Positions 30,373 to 36,511 of a stretch of 64,000 nucleotides of DNA are shown one piece after another. A program made the position numbers and the translations under genes. Within the stretch, counting starts at the first letter, position 1; each line of letters begins with the position of its first letter. Origin of the DNA: Roseofilum halophilum BLCC-M91 (GTDB lineage Bacteria; Cyanobacteriota; Cyanobacteriia; Cyanobacteriales; Desertifilaceae); the NCBI RefSeq assembly GCF_030068445.1, contig NZ_JAQPOK010000003.1:1-64000 (forward strand), read 5' to 3'. The notes beneath the pieces are model-generated. The model saw nothing but the letters and a program-made list of their open reading frames with translations, did no database searches and was not told the origin of the DNA.

Positions 30373-30512
30373 GTAGGGGCGGGTTTCACCAATATCTAGG
30401 AAAAAAGCGATCGCTCTCCTAAACCCGCCCCCCACCAGAATACAAAGGGATATGGGGCAGGTTCACTAATTGAATGGTGGGGAGTCCTAAACCTGGGTGA
30501 ACCTGCCCCTAC
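30373..30512. repeat. 140-bp inverted-repeat element, copy 1
   Basis: Starts GTAGGGGCGGGTTTCACC and ends GGTGAACCTGCCCCTAC, inverted repeats with two differences. Full second copy at 31464-31603 and a 3'-truncated copy at 31650-31736. No coding capacity. Confidence 0.85.
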
Positions 30513-30525
30513 GGTAGATATAACT

Positions 30526-30972
30526 CTATGCTACGGTTGTCGGATCTACAGCTACAATGCCTTCGCTAACGTATCGAGTAAAATCGGTAGTATTAAAGGT
30601 TAGAATATGGGTAATATTGTTAACTTTCATTGCAGCTACTAAACGAGCATCGTGTACTTGAACTCCAGATACAGCATAGGTTATGACAAGCCTCCGCCAT
30701 TCAGAATAGATTCCAGGAATATCGCTTAGTATGGGAAAAATACTTTCAATTAATGTTAAAAGCTGATTAGCTTGTATCGCAGTTAAGCCAAATCCATTTT
30801 TGTTAGCAGGTCTTGTGGCAACATTCCAAAATTCGATACAGTTTTGGGGCGTTACTTGCAGATGATGTCCGTTCTGAATTAACGTTCTGATCGCTGTTAT
30901 GGTAATTGGATGTTGCCGATCGCTCTGGCGAGTAAAACGCAGGAGTATGTTAGTATCGACAAGATAAATCAC
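30526..30972 (-). CDS. vapC: VapC-like PIN-domain ribonuclease toxin
   Basis: 148 aa PIN domain. The catalytic acids are visible in YLVDTNILLR (D6), NCIEFWNVATR (E), VHDARLVAAM (D) and TFNTTDF (D). The protein would cleave RNA. Its start lies 3 bp after the stop of the upstream antitoxin on the same strand, so they form one operon. The IEFWNVATRP segment groups it with PIN toxins paired to ribbon-helix-helix-type antitoxins. All catalytic residues appear intact. Confidence 0.88.
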   Translation of the reverse strand: MIYLVDTNILLRFTRQSDRQHPITITAIRTLIQNGHHLQVTPQNCIEFWNVATRPANKNGFGLTAIQANQLLTLIESIFPILSDIPGIYSEWRRLVITYAVSGVQVHDARLVAAMKVNNITHILTFNTTDFTRYVSEGIVAVDPTTVA

Positions 30973-30975
30973 AGC

Positions 30976-31254
30976 TTATGGGTGTTCCTGGTAAATTCCT
31001 GCACGGCTAACAGCCTCATCTGATAGTAGAGGAACATCCGGTTTGACACAAGCGGTAAAAGTATCGGTAAGCTGTTTAAGCATCGCATCAAACTCCTCGA
31101 TACTGGTCAGGGTTTGCGGCTGGTCTAAAAGGCGATCGCGCTCTTCTAGAAGTTGCAGAGCGGCTTGAACGACCTCATCCGCAGTTGAGTAGCGATCACT
31201 TTTGAGCTTTTCGAGGATAGCGCGATGGGTTTCTGGTTTTAAGACTATTGTCAT
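30976..31254 (-). CDS. antitoxin of the PIN toxin (ParD/RHH-like)
   Basis: 92 aa. The N-terminus MTIVLKPETHRAILEKLKSD and STADEVVQAALQLLEERDRL has the beta-strand plus two-helix layout of ribbon-helix-helix antitoxins. The tail (about 45-92) is probably disordered and used to wrap the toxin. It precedes vapC by 3 bp. It is expected to repress its own promoter in the ~60 bp upstream, where a broken second antitoxin gene begins on the other strand. Confidence 0.8.
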   Translation of the reverse strand: MTIVLKPETHRAILEKLKSDRYSTADEVVQAALQLLEERDRLLDQPQTLTSIEEFDAMLKQLTDTFTACVKPDVPLLSDEAVSRAGIYQEHP

Positions 31255-31463: not shown

Positions 31464-31603
31464 GTAGGGGCGGGTTTCACCAACATCTAGAAAAAAAACG
31501 ATCGCTCTCCTAAACCCGCCCCCCGCCAGGGTGCAAAGGTGTATGGGGCAGGTTCACTAATCGAATGATGGGGATTGCTAAACCTGGGTGAACCTGCCCC
31601 TAC
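31464..31603. repeat. 140-bp inverted-repeat element, copy 2
   Basis: Same ends and length as the copy at 30373, with scattered differences. The preceding TATAGAACACCATCAAATCG and the first ~70 bp recur at 31625, giving a direct repeat of about 97 bp. Confidence 0.85.
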
Positions 31604-34196: not shown

Positions 34197-35870
34197 ATGA
34201 TGAGAGCCATGGTCACGCAAGGAAGAGAGAAGTTGTTATTTACTCGGTTCAGACAATCTCAGCGTTTAGGGAAATTTTTGGCGATCGCCCTCATTTGCTG
34301 TTTCATGGCGATCGCCTGTAGTCCCCAGTCAAATACAACGCAAACTCCGACAAGGAACAATCCACGAGTAATTTTAGGAACAACGCTAAAACCCCGCACC
34401 CTCGATCCAGCCGATGCCTATGAAGTTCCTTCTCTGAATATCCTCTACAATGTGGGCGATCGCCTCTATACTTACCAGGATGGCGCATCAGACTTAACAC
34501 CCCAGTTAGCTACAGAATTACCAACCATAAGCGGCGATCGGCTCACCTACACCATCCCCTTACGTCAAGGAGTCACCTTCCACGATGGCACACCCTTCAA
34601 CGCCGAAGCCATGGTCTTTTCCCTGCAACGGTTTATGGAAAACCAGGGCAAACCCTCCTTTTTACTCTCCGATATCGTAGACTCCATCGAAGCCACCGGA
34701 GAATATGAACTCACCCTCAAACTCAACCAACCCTTTGCCGGTTTTACCGCTCTCCTTGGCTTTGGCGGACTCTGCCCCATTTCGCCCCAAGCCTATCAGA
34801 TCGGAAGCGGACAATTTCAGCCCGATACCTTTGTGGGAACTGGCCCCTACAAGGTAGCCCAAGTTACATCAGATATGATCCGCTTAGAACCCTTTGCCGA
34901 CTATTGGGGAGAGGTTCCCGAAAATGAAGGCATTGATATTCAATGGTTTTCCTCTCCCGCCAACCTATTTAACGCCTTTCGCACGGGAGCCATTGACGTA
35001 ACCCTTGGCACATTAGACAGCAATCAAATTGAGAGTTTAGAGAGAGAAATGGACACCCAAGGATGGCAAGAAATTGCCGCCGAAGGCAACACCCTCAACT
35101 ATCTGATTGTCAACGTTCAATCCGATCCCCTCAATCAACTTCCCGTTCGCCAAGCCTTAGCTGCAATCACCGATCGCCCCACAATTAACAATCGCGTCCT
35201 CCAAGGACAAGCGGAACCGGCGTATAGCTTAATACCCAAAACCTTCGCCGCATCAGAACCGGTTTTCAAAACCGTCTATGGCGATGGCAACGCGGAACTA
35301 GCCAAAAAACTCTTAACCGAAGCGGGTTATTCCGCCGATAACCCCGCAGTCGTCGAGGTTTGGTATCCCTCCAGTTCCACCAAACGGGGACTGATTGCCA
35401 GTACCCTGAAGGCGATCGCCGATACGAAACTCGAAGGAATCTTAGACATACAACCCAACTCCGTCGAATCCACCACCGCCTTCCAAAACCTAGAAAAAGG
35501 TGTTTATCCCACATTTATGCTCGATTGGTACGCCGATTTTCTCGATCCTGATAACTACGTGCAACCGTTTCTCGAATGCACCGAAGGTTCAGAAACCGAC
35601 GGCTGCACAGCCGGAGCCAGTCAATATCACGGCTCTTTTTATTATAATCCCCGCGTCAATGACCTAATTAACCAACAACGGCAAGAACAAGATCCAGAAA
35701 AACGGCGCTTACTCCTCGTGGAAATTCAAGAACTCTTAGCCGAAGAAGTCCCTTATATTCCCCTCTGGTTTGACAAAGATTATGTATTTGCCCAGCAAAA
35801 CATTGAAGGCGTTATGATTGAGGCCAATCAATCTATTCCCTATAGCAAAATCACGCGAGTTGAAACTTAG
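34197..35870 (+). CDS. family 5 peptide/nickel-type ABC substrate-binding lipoprotein
   Basis: 557 aa. The N-terminus has a basic stretch, a hydrophobic core (FLAIALICCFMAIAC) and a lipobox (MAIAC), so it is lipid-anchored in the periplasm. The mature domain has the OppA/DppA family layout: LGTTLKPRTLDPADAYEV, LRQGVTFHDGTPFNAEAMVF and a late LAEEVPYIPLWF. It would bind an oligopeptide or similar ligand for ABC import. No permease or ATPase genes are adjacent. The start may be the ATG at 34197 or the one at 34209. Confidence 0.92.
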   Translation: MMRAMVTQGREKLLFTRFRQSQRLGKFLAIALICCFMAIACSPQSNTTQTPTRNNPRVILGTTLKPRTLDPADAYEVPSLNILYNVGDRLYTYQDGASDLTPQLATELPTISGDRLTYTIPLRQGVTFHDGTPFNAEAMVFSLQRFMENQGKPSFLLSDIVDSIEATGEYELTLKLNQPFAGFTALLGFGGLCPISPQAYQIGSGQFQPDTFVGTGPYKVAQVTSDMIRLEPFADYWGEVPENEGIDIQWFSSPANLFNAFRTGAIDVTLGTLDSNQIESLEREMDTQGWQEIAAEGNTLNYLIVNVQSDPLNQLPVRQALAAITDRPTINNRVLQGQAEPAYSLIPKTFAASEPVFKTVYGDGNAELAKKLLTEAGYSADNPAVVEVWYPSSSTKRGLIASTLKAIADTKLEGILDIQPNSVESTTAFQNLEKGVYPTFMLDWYADFLDPDNYVQPFLECTEGSETDGCTAGASQYHGSFYYNPRVNDLINQQRQEQDPEKRRLLLVEIQELLAEEVPYIPLWFDKDYVFAQQNIEGVMIEANQSIPYSKITRVET

Positions 35871-35905
35871 TCCCCTCTTTTCCCTTCCCTGTTTCTGGGG
35901 GACTC

Positions 35906-35994
35906 TGTGGTGAATGAACGACGTTAGTTTTAGAGGGTAGCATCCTCCCAAAATCGGGTAAAATAAAAGTATAGGAAAACACTCATTCACCACA
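35906..35994 (+). promoter_or_regulatory. 12-bp inverted repeat around the microprotein promoter/leader
   Basis: TGTGGTGAATGA (35906-35917) and TCATTCACCACA (35983-35994) are perfect reverse complements 65 bp apart. Between them are a small hairpin (GAGGGTAGCATCCTC) and AT-rich TAAAATAAAAGTATAGG that could be a -10 region. The second arm ends 3 bp before the AGGGAGG ribosome-binding site. In RNA, pairing of the arms could control access to that site. Confidence 0.55.
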
Positions 35995-36010
35995 TCAGGG
36001 AGGCATAACC

Positions 36011-36103
36011 ATGGTTACCTTAATTTTAGCGATCGCCATCCTCTACTTAGCCCTCATTTATGGCGGCTTAACCTGGATCTCTAAACACTCGCAGACCCTC
36101 TAG
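36011..36103 (+). CDS. single-pass membrane microprotein, 30 aa
   Basis: Sequence MVTLILAIAILYLALIYGGL then TWISKHSQTL. The start has an excellent Shine-Dalgarno, AGGGAGG, 7 bp upstream. One helix (about 3-20) and a short basic tail give the layout of small subunits of photosynthetic or respiratory membrane complexes, or of pump regulators. It does not match PetN, PetG, PetL, PsbM or KdpF as I know them, so no name is given. A hairpin follows its stop, and the next gene is convergent. Confidence 0.75.
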   Translation: MVTLILAIAILYLALIYGGLTWISKHSQTL

Positions 36104-36109
36104 ACCCAA

Positions 36110-36161
36110 AACCGGGTTTCTATTCAAGTGAGCAACAAAAAGATAGACCAGAAACCCGGTT
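36110..36161. terminator. hairpin between convergent genes
   Basis: AACCGGGTTTCT pairs with AGAAACCCGGTT across a ~28-nt loop. It lies 7 bp after the microprotein stop and 6 bp from the ferredoxin stop and could serve both. No long T-run follows. It is related to the repeat at 32303-32363. Confidence 0.5.
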
Positions 36162-36166
36162 CCCCA

Positions 36167-36511
36167 TTACCCATGATCCTCCGGAGTCCAAACCTTTTGG
36201 TCTCCTTGTCCCCAAAACCCATCAAATTTGGTCACAGATACATCACCTAACACCTGAGTCTGACAAGCCAAACGCAAGGGACGATCGCCAGAATGGGGAG
36301 GAAGCGATCGCCGGGTGCGATCGCGCCAATTCGGGGGCGACACCTCACCCTCCACAGACACCGCACAAGTGCCACAAGTCCCCAGTCCTCGACAATTGAT
36401 TAACTTTGACTGACCGTTATAGAGCGCAATATCATGGGCTAACAGCACCTGGCGCAAATTAGCCCCAGTTTCACAGGTGATTTCTTGACCCGCCACTTTA
36501 ATCTTCACCAT
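36167..36511 (-). CDS. 2Fe-2S ferredoxin-like protein
   Basis: 114 aa. The [2Fe-2S] cysteines are in CRGLGTCGTC plus the distant LACQTQV; the fold starts MVKIKVAGQEITCETGANLR. The cluster loop lacks the first Cys spacing of plant-type photosynthetic ferredoxin (CRxGxCxxC), so this is one of the alternative ferredoxins of cyanobacteria. A positive patch (RDRTRRSL) follows the cluster. It would pass electrons in the cytosol; the partner is unknown. It is convergent with the microprotein gene. Confidence 0.88.
   Translation of the reverse strand: MVKIKVAGQEITCETGANLRQVLLAHDIALYNGQSKLINCRGLGTCGTCAVSVEGEVSPPNWRDRTRRSLPPHSGDRPLRLACQTQVLGDVSVTKFDGFWGQGDQKVWTPEDHG

Follow-up and report, generated by a model that had tools for sequence, protein, structure and literature searches.

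The closest described system in kind is HliR1 of Synechocystis 6803/6714, which the passages of PMC5126843 devoted to it present as a microprotein of 37 aa that has a single predicted membrane segment and for which no homologue was found outside its genus. The HliR1 protein was detected by tagging, high light induces its mRNA, and its gene precedes sodB in the same orientation, with read-through linking the two (PMC5126843). The same source describes Norf4 of Synechocystis 6803, a product of 31 aa with one predicted membrane segment, the transcript of which may also act on gap1 mRNA, and gives PetN as a protein of 29 aa that is conserved in cyanobacteria (PMC5126843). For Microcystis, the type I toxin-antitoxin pair msoT1/msoA1 is described as a MsoT1 peptide with two predicted helices together with an opposite-strand RNA with active promoters, and the candidates of that study were 39-81 aa long (PMC12390103). 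The relevant passages of PMC5126843 and PMC12390103 make no mention of the peptide analyzed here.

The window, i.e. the whole stretch of DNA analyzed, covers 64,000 nucleotides of Roseofilum halophilum BLCC-M91. Members of the genus Roseofilum are known from black band disease of corals. The locus is best explained, with reasonable probability, as a stand-alone Roseofilum gene for a 30-residue single-pass membrane microprotein that has a short leader of its own, the hairpin formed by the inverted repeat in front of it having no conserved role. The features of the locus are collected in Table 1.

Table 1. Features of the microprotein locus and its neighbours (positions in the window).
Feature	Position	Strand	Remarks
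Upstream neighbour, SBP_bac_5 substrate-binding protein	34197-35870	+	
Left arm of perfect inverted repeat	35906-35917	+	TGTGGTGAATGA; without conservation in relatives
Conserved leader and putative promoter block	35951-36010	+	51/60 columns identical in three species
-10-like hexamer	35959-35964	+	TAAAAT in the window, TAGAAT in G005, TATGAT in G004
Right arm of perfect inverted repeat	35983-35994	+	TCATTCACCACA; within conserved leader; TTATTCACCACA in G005, CCATTCACCGCA in G004
GGGAGG ribosome-binding site	35998-36003	+	7 nt before ATG at 36011; identical in three species
ORF, predicted single-pass membrane microprotein	36011-36103	+	30 codons and stop; homologues, codon-position pattern, predicted helix
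Hairpin behind stop	36110-36161		perfect 12-bp arms 36110-36121/36150-36161; z -5.02
Downstream convergent neighbour, Fer2 2Fe-2S protein	36167-36511	-	

The gene for the 30-residue peptide looks real. The initial annotation had described a single-helix protein with an ideal ribosome-binding site, and both were recovered: AlphaFold2, run without an alignment, predicted one helix covering residues 2-29 (mean pLDDT 91.8). Mean Kyte-Doolittle hydropathy reaches 2.4 over 19 residues, and the peptide has a Lys/His tail. Among the three species with the gene, the variable sites of the ORF are distributed 2/2/10 over the codon positions (P 0.004, the relatedness of the sequences being ignored), while the 60 nt upstream of the ORF, counted in the same three phases, gave 1/4/4. 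Pairwise dS of the ORF was 0.23-0.33 and dN 0.03-0.09. Codons 1-24, which encode the helix, include a single amino acid change, Thr to Ser, across the three species, and the tail codons 25-30 are free to vary. Such a pattern would be expected of a protein-coding gene whose membrane helix is under constraint, although the numbers are small and the related sequences not independent of each other.

With E allowed up to 10, the peptide had no match in Pfam, NCBIfam, PADLOC or the PDB sequences, though profiles so short can miss matches. The earlier remark that the protein matches no known small photosystem, cytochrome or transporter subunit agrees with the Pfam, NCBIfam and PDB results, on which a small photosystem, cytochrome b6f or transporter subunit was rejected as a candidate. 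Because the gene is absent from half of the genus genomes examined and has no profile match, the peptide is not a core photosynthetic subunit. PHROGs yielded a weak match at E 0.09 and another at 0.37, both of unknown function, which were taken as chance. Phages and plasmids included no match, nor did viral contigs include an exact match to the peptide pattern.

No convincing homologue was detected beyond the genus in 59 relatives searched with the 30-aa query, 388 genomes of the order searched by DNA and 386 genomes of the phylum searched by profile. The strong matches (three, three and two genomes, respectively) were all from Roseofilum, and the single record containing the peptide pattern among wider genome contigs was also from Roseofilum. 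With the 30-aa query 16 of the 59 genomes gave a match at E up to 10, only those in G000, G004 and G005 being strong; the weak matches in G001, G002, G026, G019, G042 and G016 and a second match in G005 were dropped on score, their frames having been read only roughly, with minus-strand loci in the orientation given. Of the 388 genomes, 35 were found with the DNA query when E was allowed up to 0.01, and except for three of them they match over only 20-41 bases; most of these short matches centre on GCGATCGC, which we take to be the cyanobacterial HIP1 repeat. Of the 386 genomes, 152 were found with the profile when E was allowed up to 1, and E was above 0.01 in every one of these except two.

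The peptide is conserved in G005 (93% identity to the window) and G004 (90%). The DNA identity of cimA to the window was 92% in G005, 89% in G004 and 87% in G001, a genome without the gene; the three carrier species are thus close, and part of the identity among them is kinship. Each carrier genome has one copy of the gene. The searches turned up no copy in G001, G002 and G003, three of the six Roseofilum species genomes, and the gene must therefore be dispensable.

The gene for the substrate-binding protein (SBP) was present in all seven genomes searched, and the microprotein gene lies behind it only in G000 and G005, in the latter with the same neighbours as in the window. In G004 it is located 80 bp behind a gene presumed from its sequence to be GspF-like, with another convergent gene downstream, and each of the remaining five genomes of the genus has the GspF-like gene with something different behind it. 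The leader and the ORF thus form a unit of ca. 150 bp that stays together while the neighbourhood changes.

When L005:456-1593 is compared with window positions 34197-36511, the microprotein unit is seen to occupy intergenic sites that are not the same in the two Roseofilum species. What lies behind the SBP gene and behind the GspF-like gene differs in most of the six species, which suggests frequent rearrangement at these places. With E limited to 1e-15, the Fer2 protein was recovered from only three of the six genus genomes (G000, G001 and G005), and also from G007 and G009 of the family, there with an in-frame TGA in the match.

The block common to the three species begins between the arms of the inverted repeat, near 35950. 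Each version of the -10-like hexamer matches five of the six letters of TATAAT, and only the middle letters differ. No -35 was found in the shared block, and a stricter scan demanding both -35 and -10 hexamers gave no sigma-70-type promoter on either strand. Because the conserved block starts between the arms and the hexamer lies there, we infer from conservation and a weak motif that transcription probably starts at about 35970-35973, inside the would-be loop. If the hexamer is the -10, the left arm would lie outside the RNA and the ribosome-binding site would stay open. The leader alone (35971-36030) was unstructured (z +0.93). Positions 35800-36300 matched no known RNA element of Rfam with E allowed up to 5, and a regulon search with the 68-nt leader found no second strong match in the six genus genomes.

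The main rival explanation is a type I toxin, in which a membrane-damaging peptide would be encoded by an mRNA silenced by an antisense RNA targeting the conserved leader. Both the length of 30 aa with one predicted hydrophobic helix and a Lys/His tail, and the lineage-restricted, patchy occurrence of a gene standing alone in two neighbourhoods, are consistent with such a toxin, as is the leader, which is as conserved as the ORF and in the complement of which TATACT is unchanged in the three species; however, no antisense promoter emerged from the scan of both strands, there is only one copy per genome, and the searches of Pfam, NCBIfam and PADLOC argue against it as well. A type I toxin is considered unlikely.

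The inverted repeat itself was found as initially reported, with two perfectly complementary 12-bp arms separated by 65 nt and the right arm ending next to the ribosome-binding site, 3 nt 5' of GGGAGG, which itself stays outside the stem. When the 141-nt intergenic stretch 35870-36010 was shuffled 5000 times with its dinucleotides preserved, a perfect pair of at least 12 bp within 100 nt never arose. The whole 64-kb window includes ten such pairs, against a mean of 0.25 in 40 shuffles, of which 20% had at least one; the place at 35906-35994 was thus picked from many. The genome is richer in such pairs than shuffling predicts, for various reasons. The minimum-energy structure of 35900-36020 contains the 12-bp stem, and the fold of the whole stretch is unexceptional (z -1.51, 13 of 200 shuffles being equally good). 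When the three species were folded from before the left arm, the stem formed only in the window.

Aligned without gaps upstream of the ATG, the window matches G005 at three of the 20 positions from -110 to -91, the place of the left arm, and at 34 of the 40 positions from -90 to -51, and agreement with G004 starts only near -60. The left arm is absent from both relatives with the gene: in G005 the intergenic stretch at its place is unrelated to the window, and in G004 the corresponding place (L005:1396-1407) falls in the last part of the GspF-like gene, the end of which is at 1421. Over the 220 nt upstream, the 12-nt stretch that pairs best with the right arm forms 12 of 12 pairs in the window and nine of 12 in both G005 and G004, a value reached by 60% (G005) and 24% (G004) of 500 shuffled arms, i.e. 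in these two relatives pairing over this distance is no better than chance.

The initial annotation had proposed that, with a transcript starting before 35906, the arms would pair and might hide the ribosome-binding site, and that a regulated microprotein would be supported by a conserved peptide and by pairing conserved despite changed sequence. The leader, the site and the peptide proved to be conserved in two further species, but the left arm and the pairing were missing there, and the conserved block starts between the arms; a conserved hairpin hiding the ribosome-binding site was rejected on these two relatives. The perfect inverted repeat is probably a lineage feature without a conserved role, and at most its arms would matter in read-through transcripts from the upstream SBP gene.

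This would be the case in a species-specific riboregulator, where long SBP transcripts would fold the arms and so hide or insulate the ribosome-binding site. Arms as perfect as these are locally unlikely by chance, and the stem is part of the minimum-energy fold, yet neither relative has the pairing, GGGAGG is separated from the stem by 3 nt, 13 of 200 shuffled sequences fold as well as the whole stretch, and a conserved -10-like hexamer is located inside the loop; we regard this explanation as very unlikely.

The bases around the left arm (35888-35920) resemble a reading frame in G004, G000 and G005, presumably that of an ABC ATPase gene, at 82-85% over 33 nt. This likeness was taken as chance. 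The left arm may or may not belong to a dispersed repeat, the counts pointing both ways. With at most two mismatches, GACTCTGTGGTGAAT occurs 17 times genome-wide against three for the reversed control, and its shorter form occurs twice in the 64-kb window against 1.3 expected.

A second perfect 12-bp pair (AACCGGGTTTCT/AGAAACCCGGTT), absent from the initial annotation, is located directly 3' of the ORF and forms the hairpin behind the stop, where the + strand is without a T run. Each of the three species has a stable hairpin behind the stop, with a sequence of its own (z -5.02, -2.27 and -3.71), and the one in the window may end the microprotein transcript, the transcript of the convergent ferredoxin gene, or both. 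Its motif has six matches with at most one mismatch in the window against 0.41 expected and may therefore be a dispersed repeat. Elsewhere in the window, an identical 13-bp inverted repeat with a 30-nt gap, GGGGCAGGTTCAC, is present at 30454-30509 and 31545-31600, ca. 1.1 kb apart, and these two repeats flank a pair of minus-strand ORFs (30526-31254), which we take to be a VapC-type toxin and its antitoxin.

The hairpins behind the stop and the equal conservation of leader and ORF would also suit a small regulatory RNA with an incidental ORF, but this is highly improbable given the third-position excess present in the ORF and lacking in the leader, dN well below dS, and the strong ribosome-binding site.

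In the preferred reading, that of a stand-alone membrane microprotein gene, its own -10-dominated promoter would start transcription near 35972, between the arms, and the resulting leader of about 40 nt would leave GGGAGG open. The peptide would then insert in the membrane so that its Lys/His tail stays in the cell interior, and, as its size, helix and constraint suggest, it may act on a larger membrane protein or complex to which it binds. It is quite unlikely, in our estimate, that the locus represents a new membrane microprotein family in the form of a self-contained promoter-leader-peptide unit of ca. 150 bp, occupying varied intergenic sites in Roseofilum and serving either as a type I-like toxin or to regulate a membrane complex. 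Genes so short are usually missed by annotation, and the conserved leader together with a helix apparently under protein-level constraint makes this one a cheap and well-defined target for tagging. The locus also illustrates that a perfect 12-bp repeat, even next to a ribosome-binding site, can be specific to one lineage and does not have to be a regulator.

As far as the published descriptions of the known systems allow comparison, msoT1 and the Roseofilum gene are both cyanobacterial genes for small hydrophobic peptides, but MsoT1 has two predicted helices and the Roseofilum peptide one. PetN and the small photosynthetic subunits are similar to the Roseofilum peptide in length and in having a single helix; PetN, however, is conserved in cyanobacteria, whereas the Roseofilum gene is missing from half of the genus genomes and is without a Pfam match. 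Norf4 resembles the peptide, by description only, in size and in its one predicted segment, the possible action on gap1 mRNA being that of the Norf4 transcript. HliR1 is the nearest in kind, again by description only, as both are genus-restricted with one predicted membrane segment. The two differ in that HliR1 precedes sodB on the same strand while the next neighbour of the Roseofilum gene is convergent, and in that HliR1 is known as a tagged protein with a high-light-induced mRNA and the Roseofilum peptide from sequence alone. What is new is that the Roseofilum gene would add a further example, comparable in kind to HliR1, to the genus-restricted single-pass membrane microproteins.
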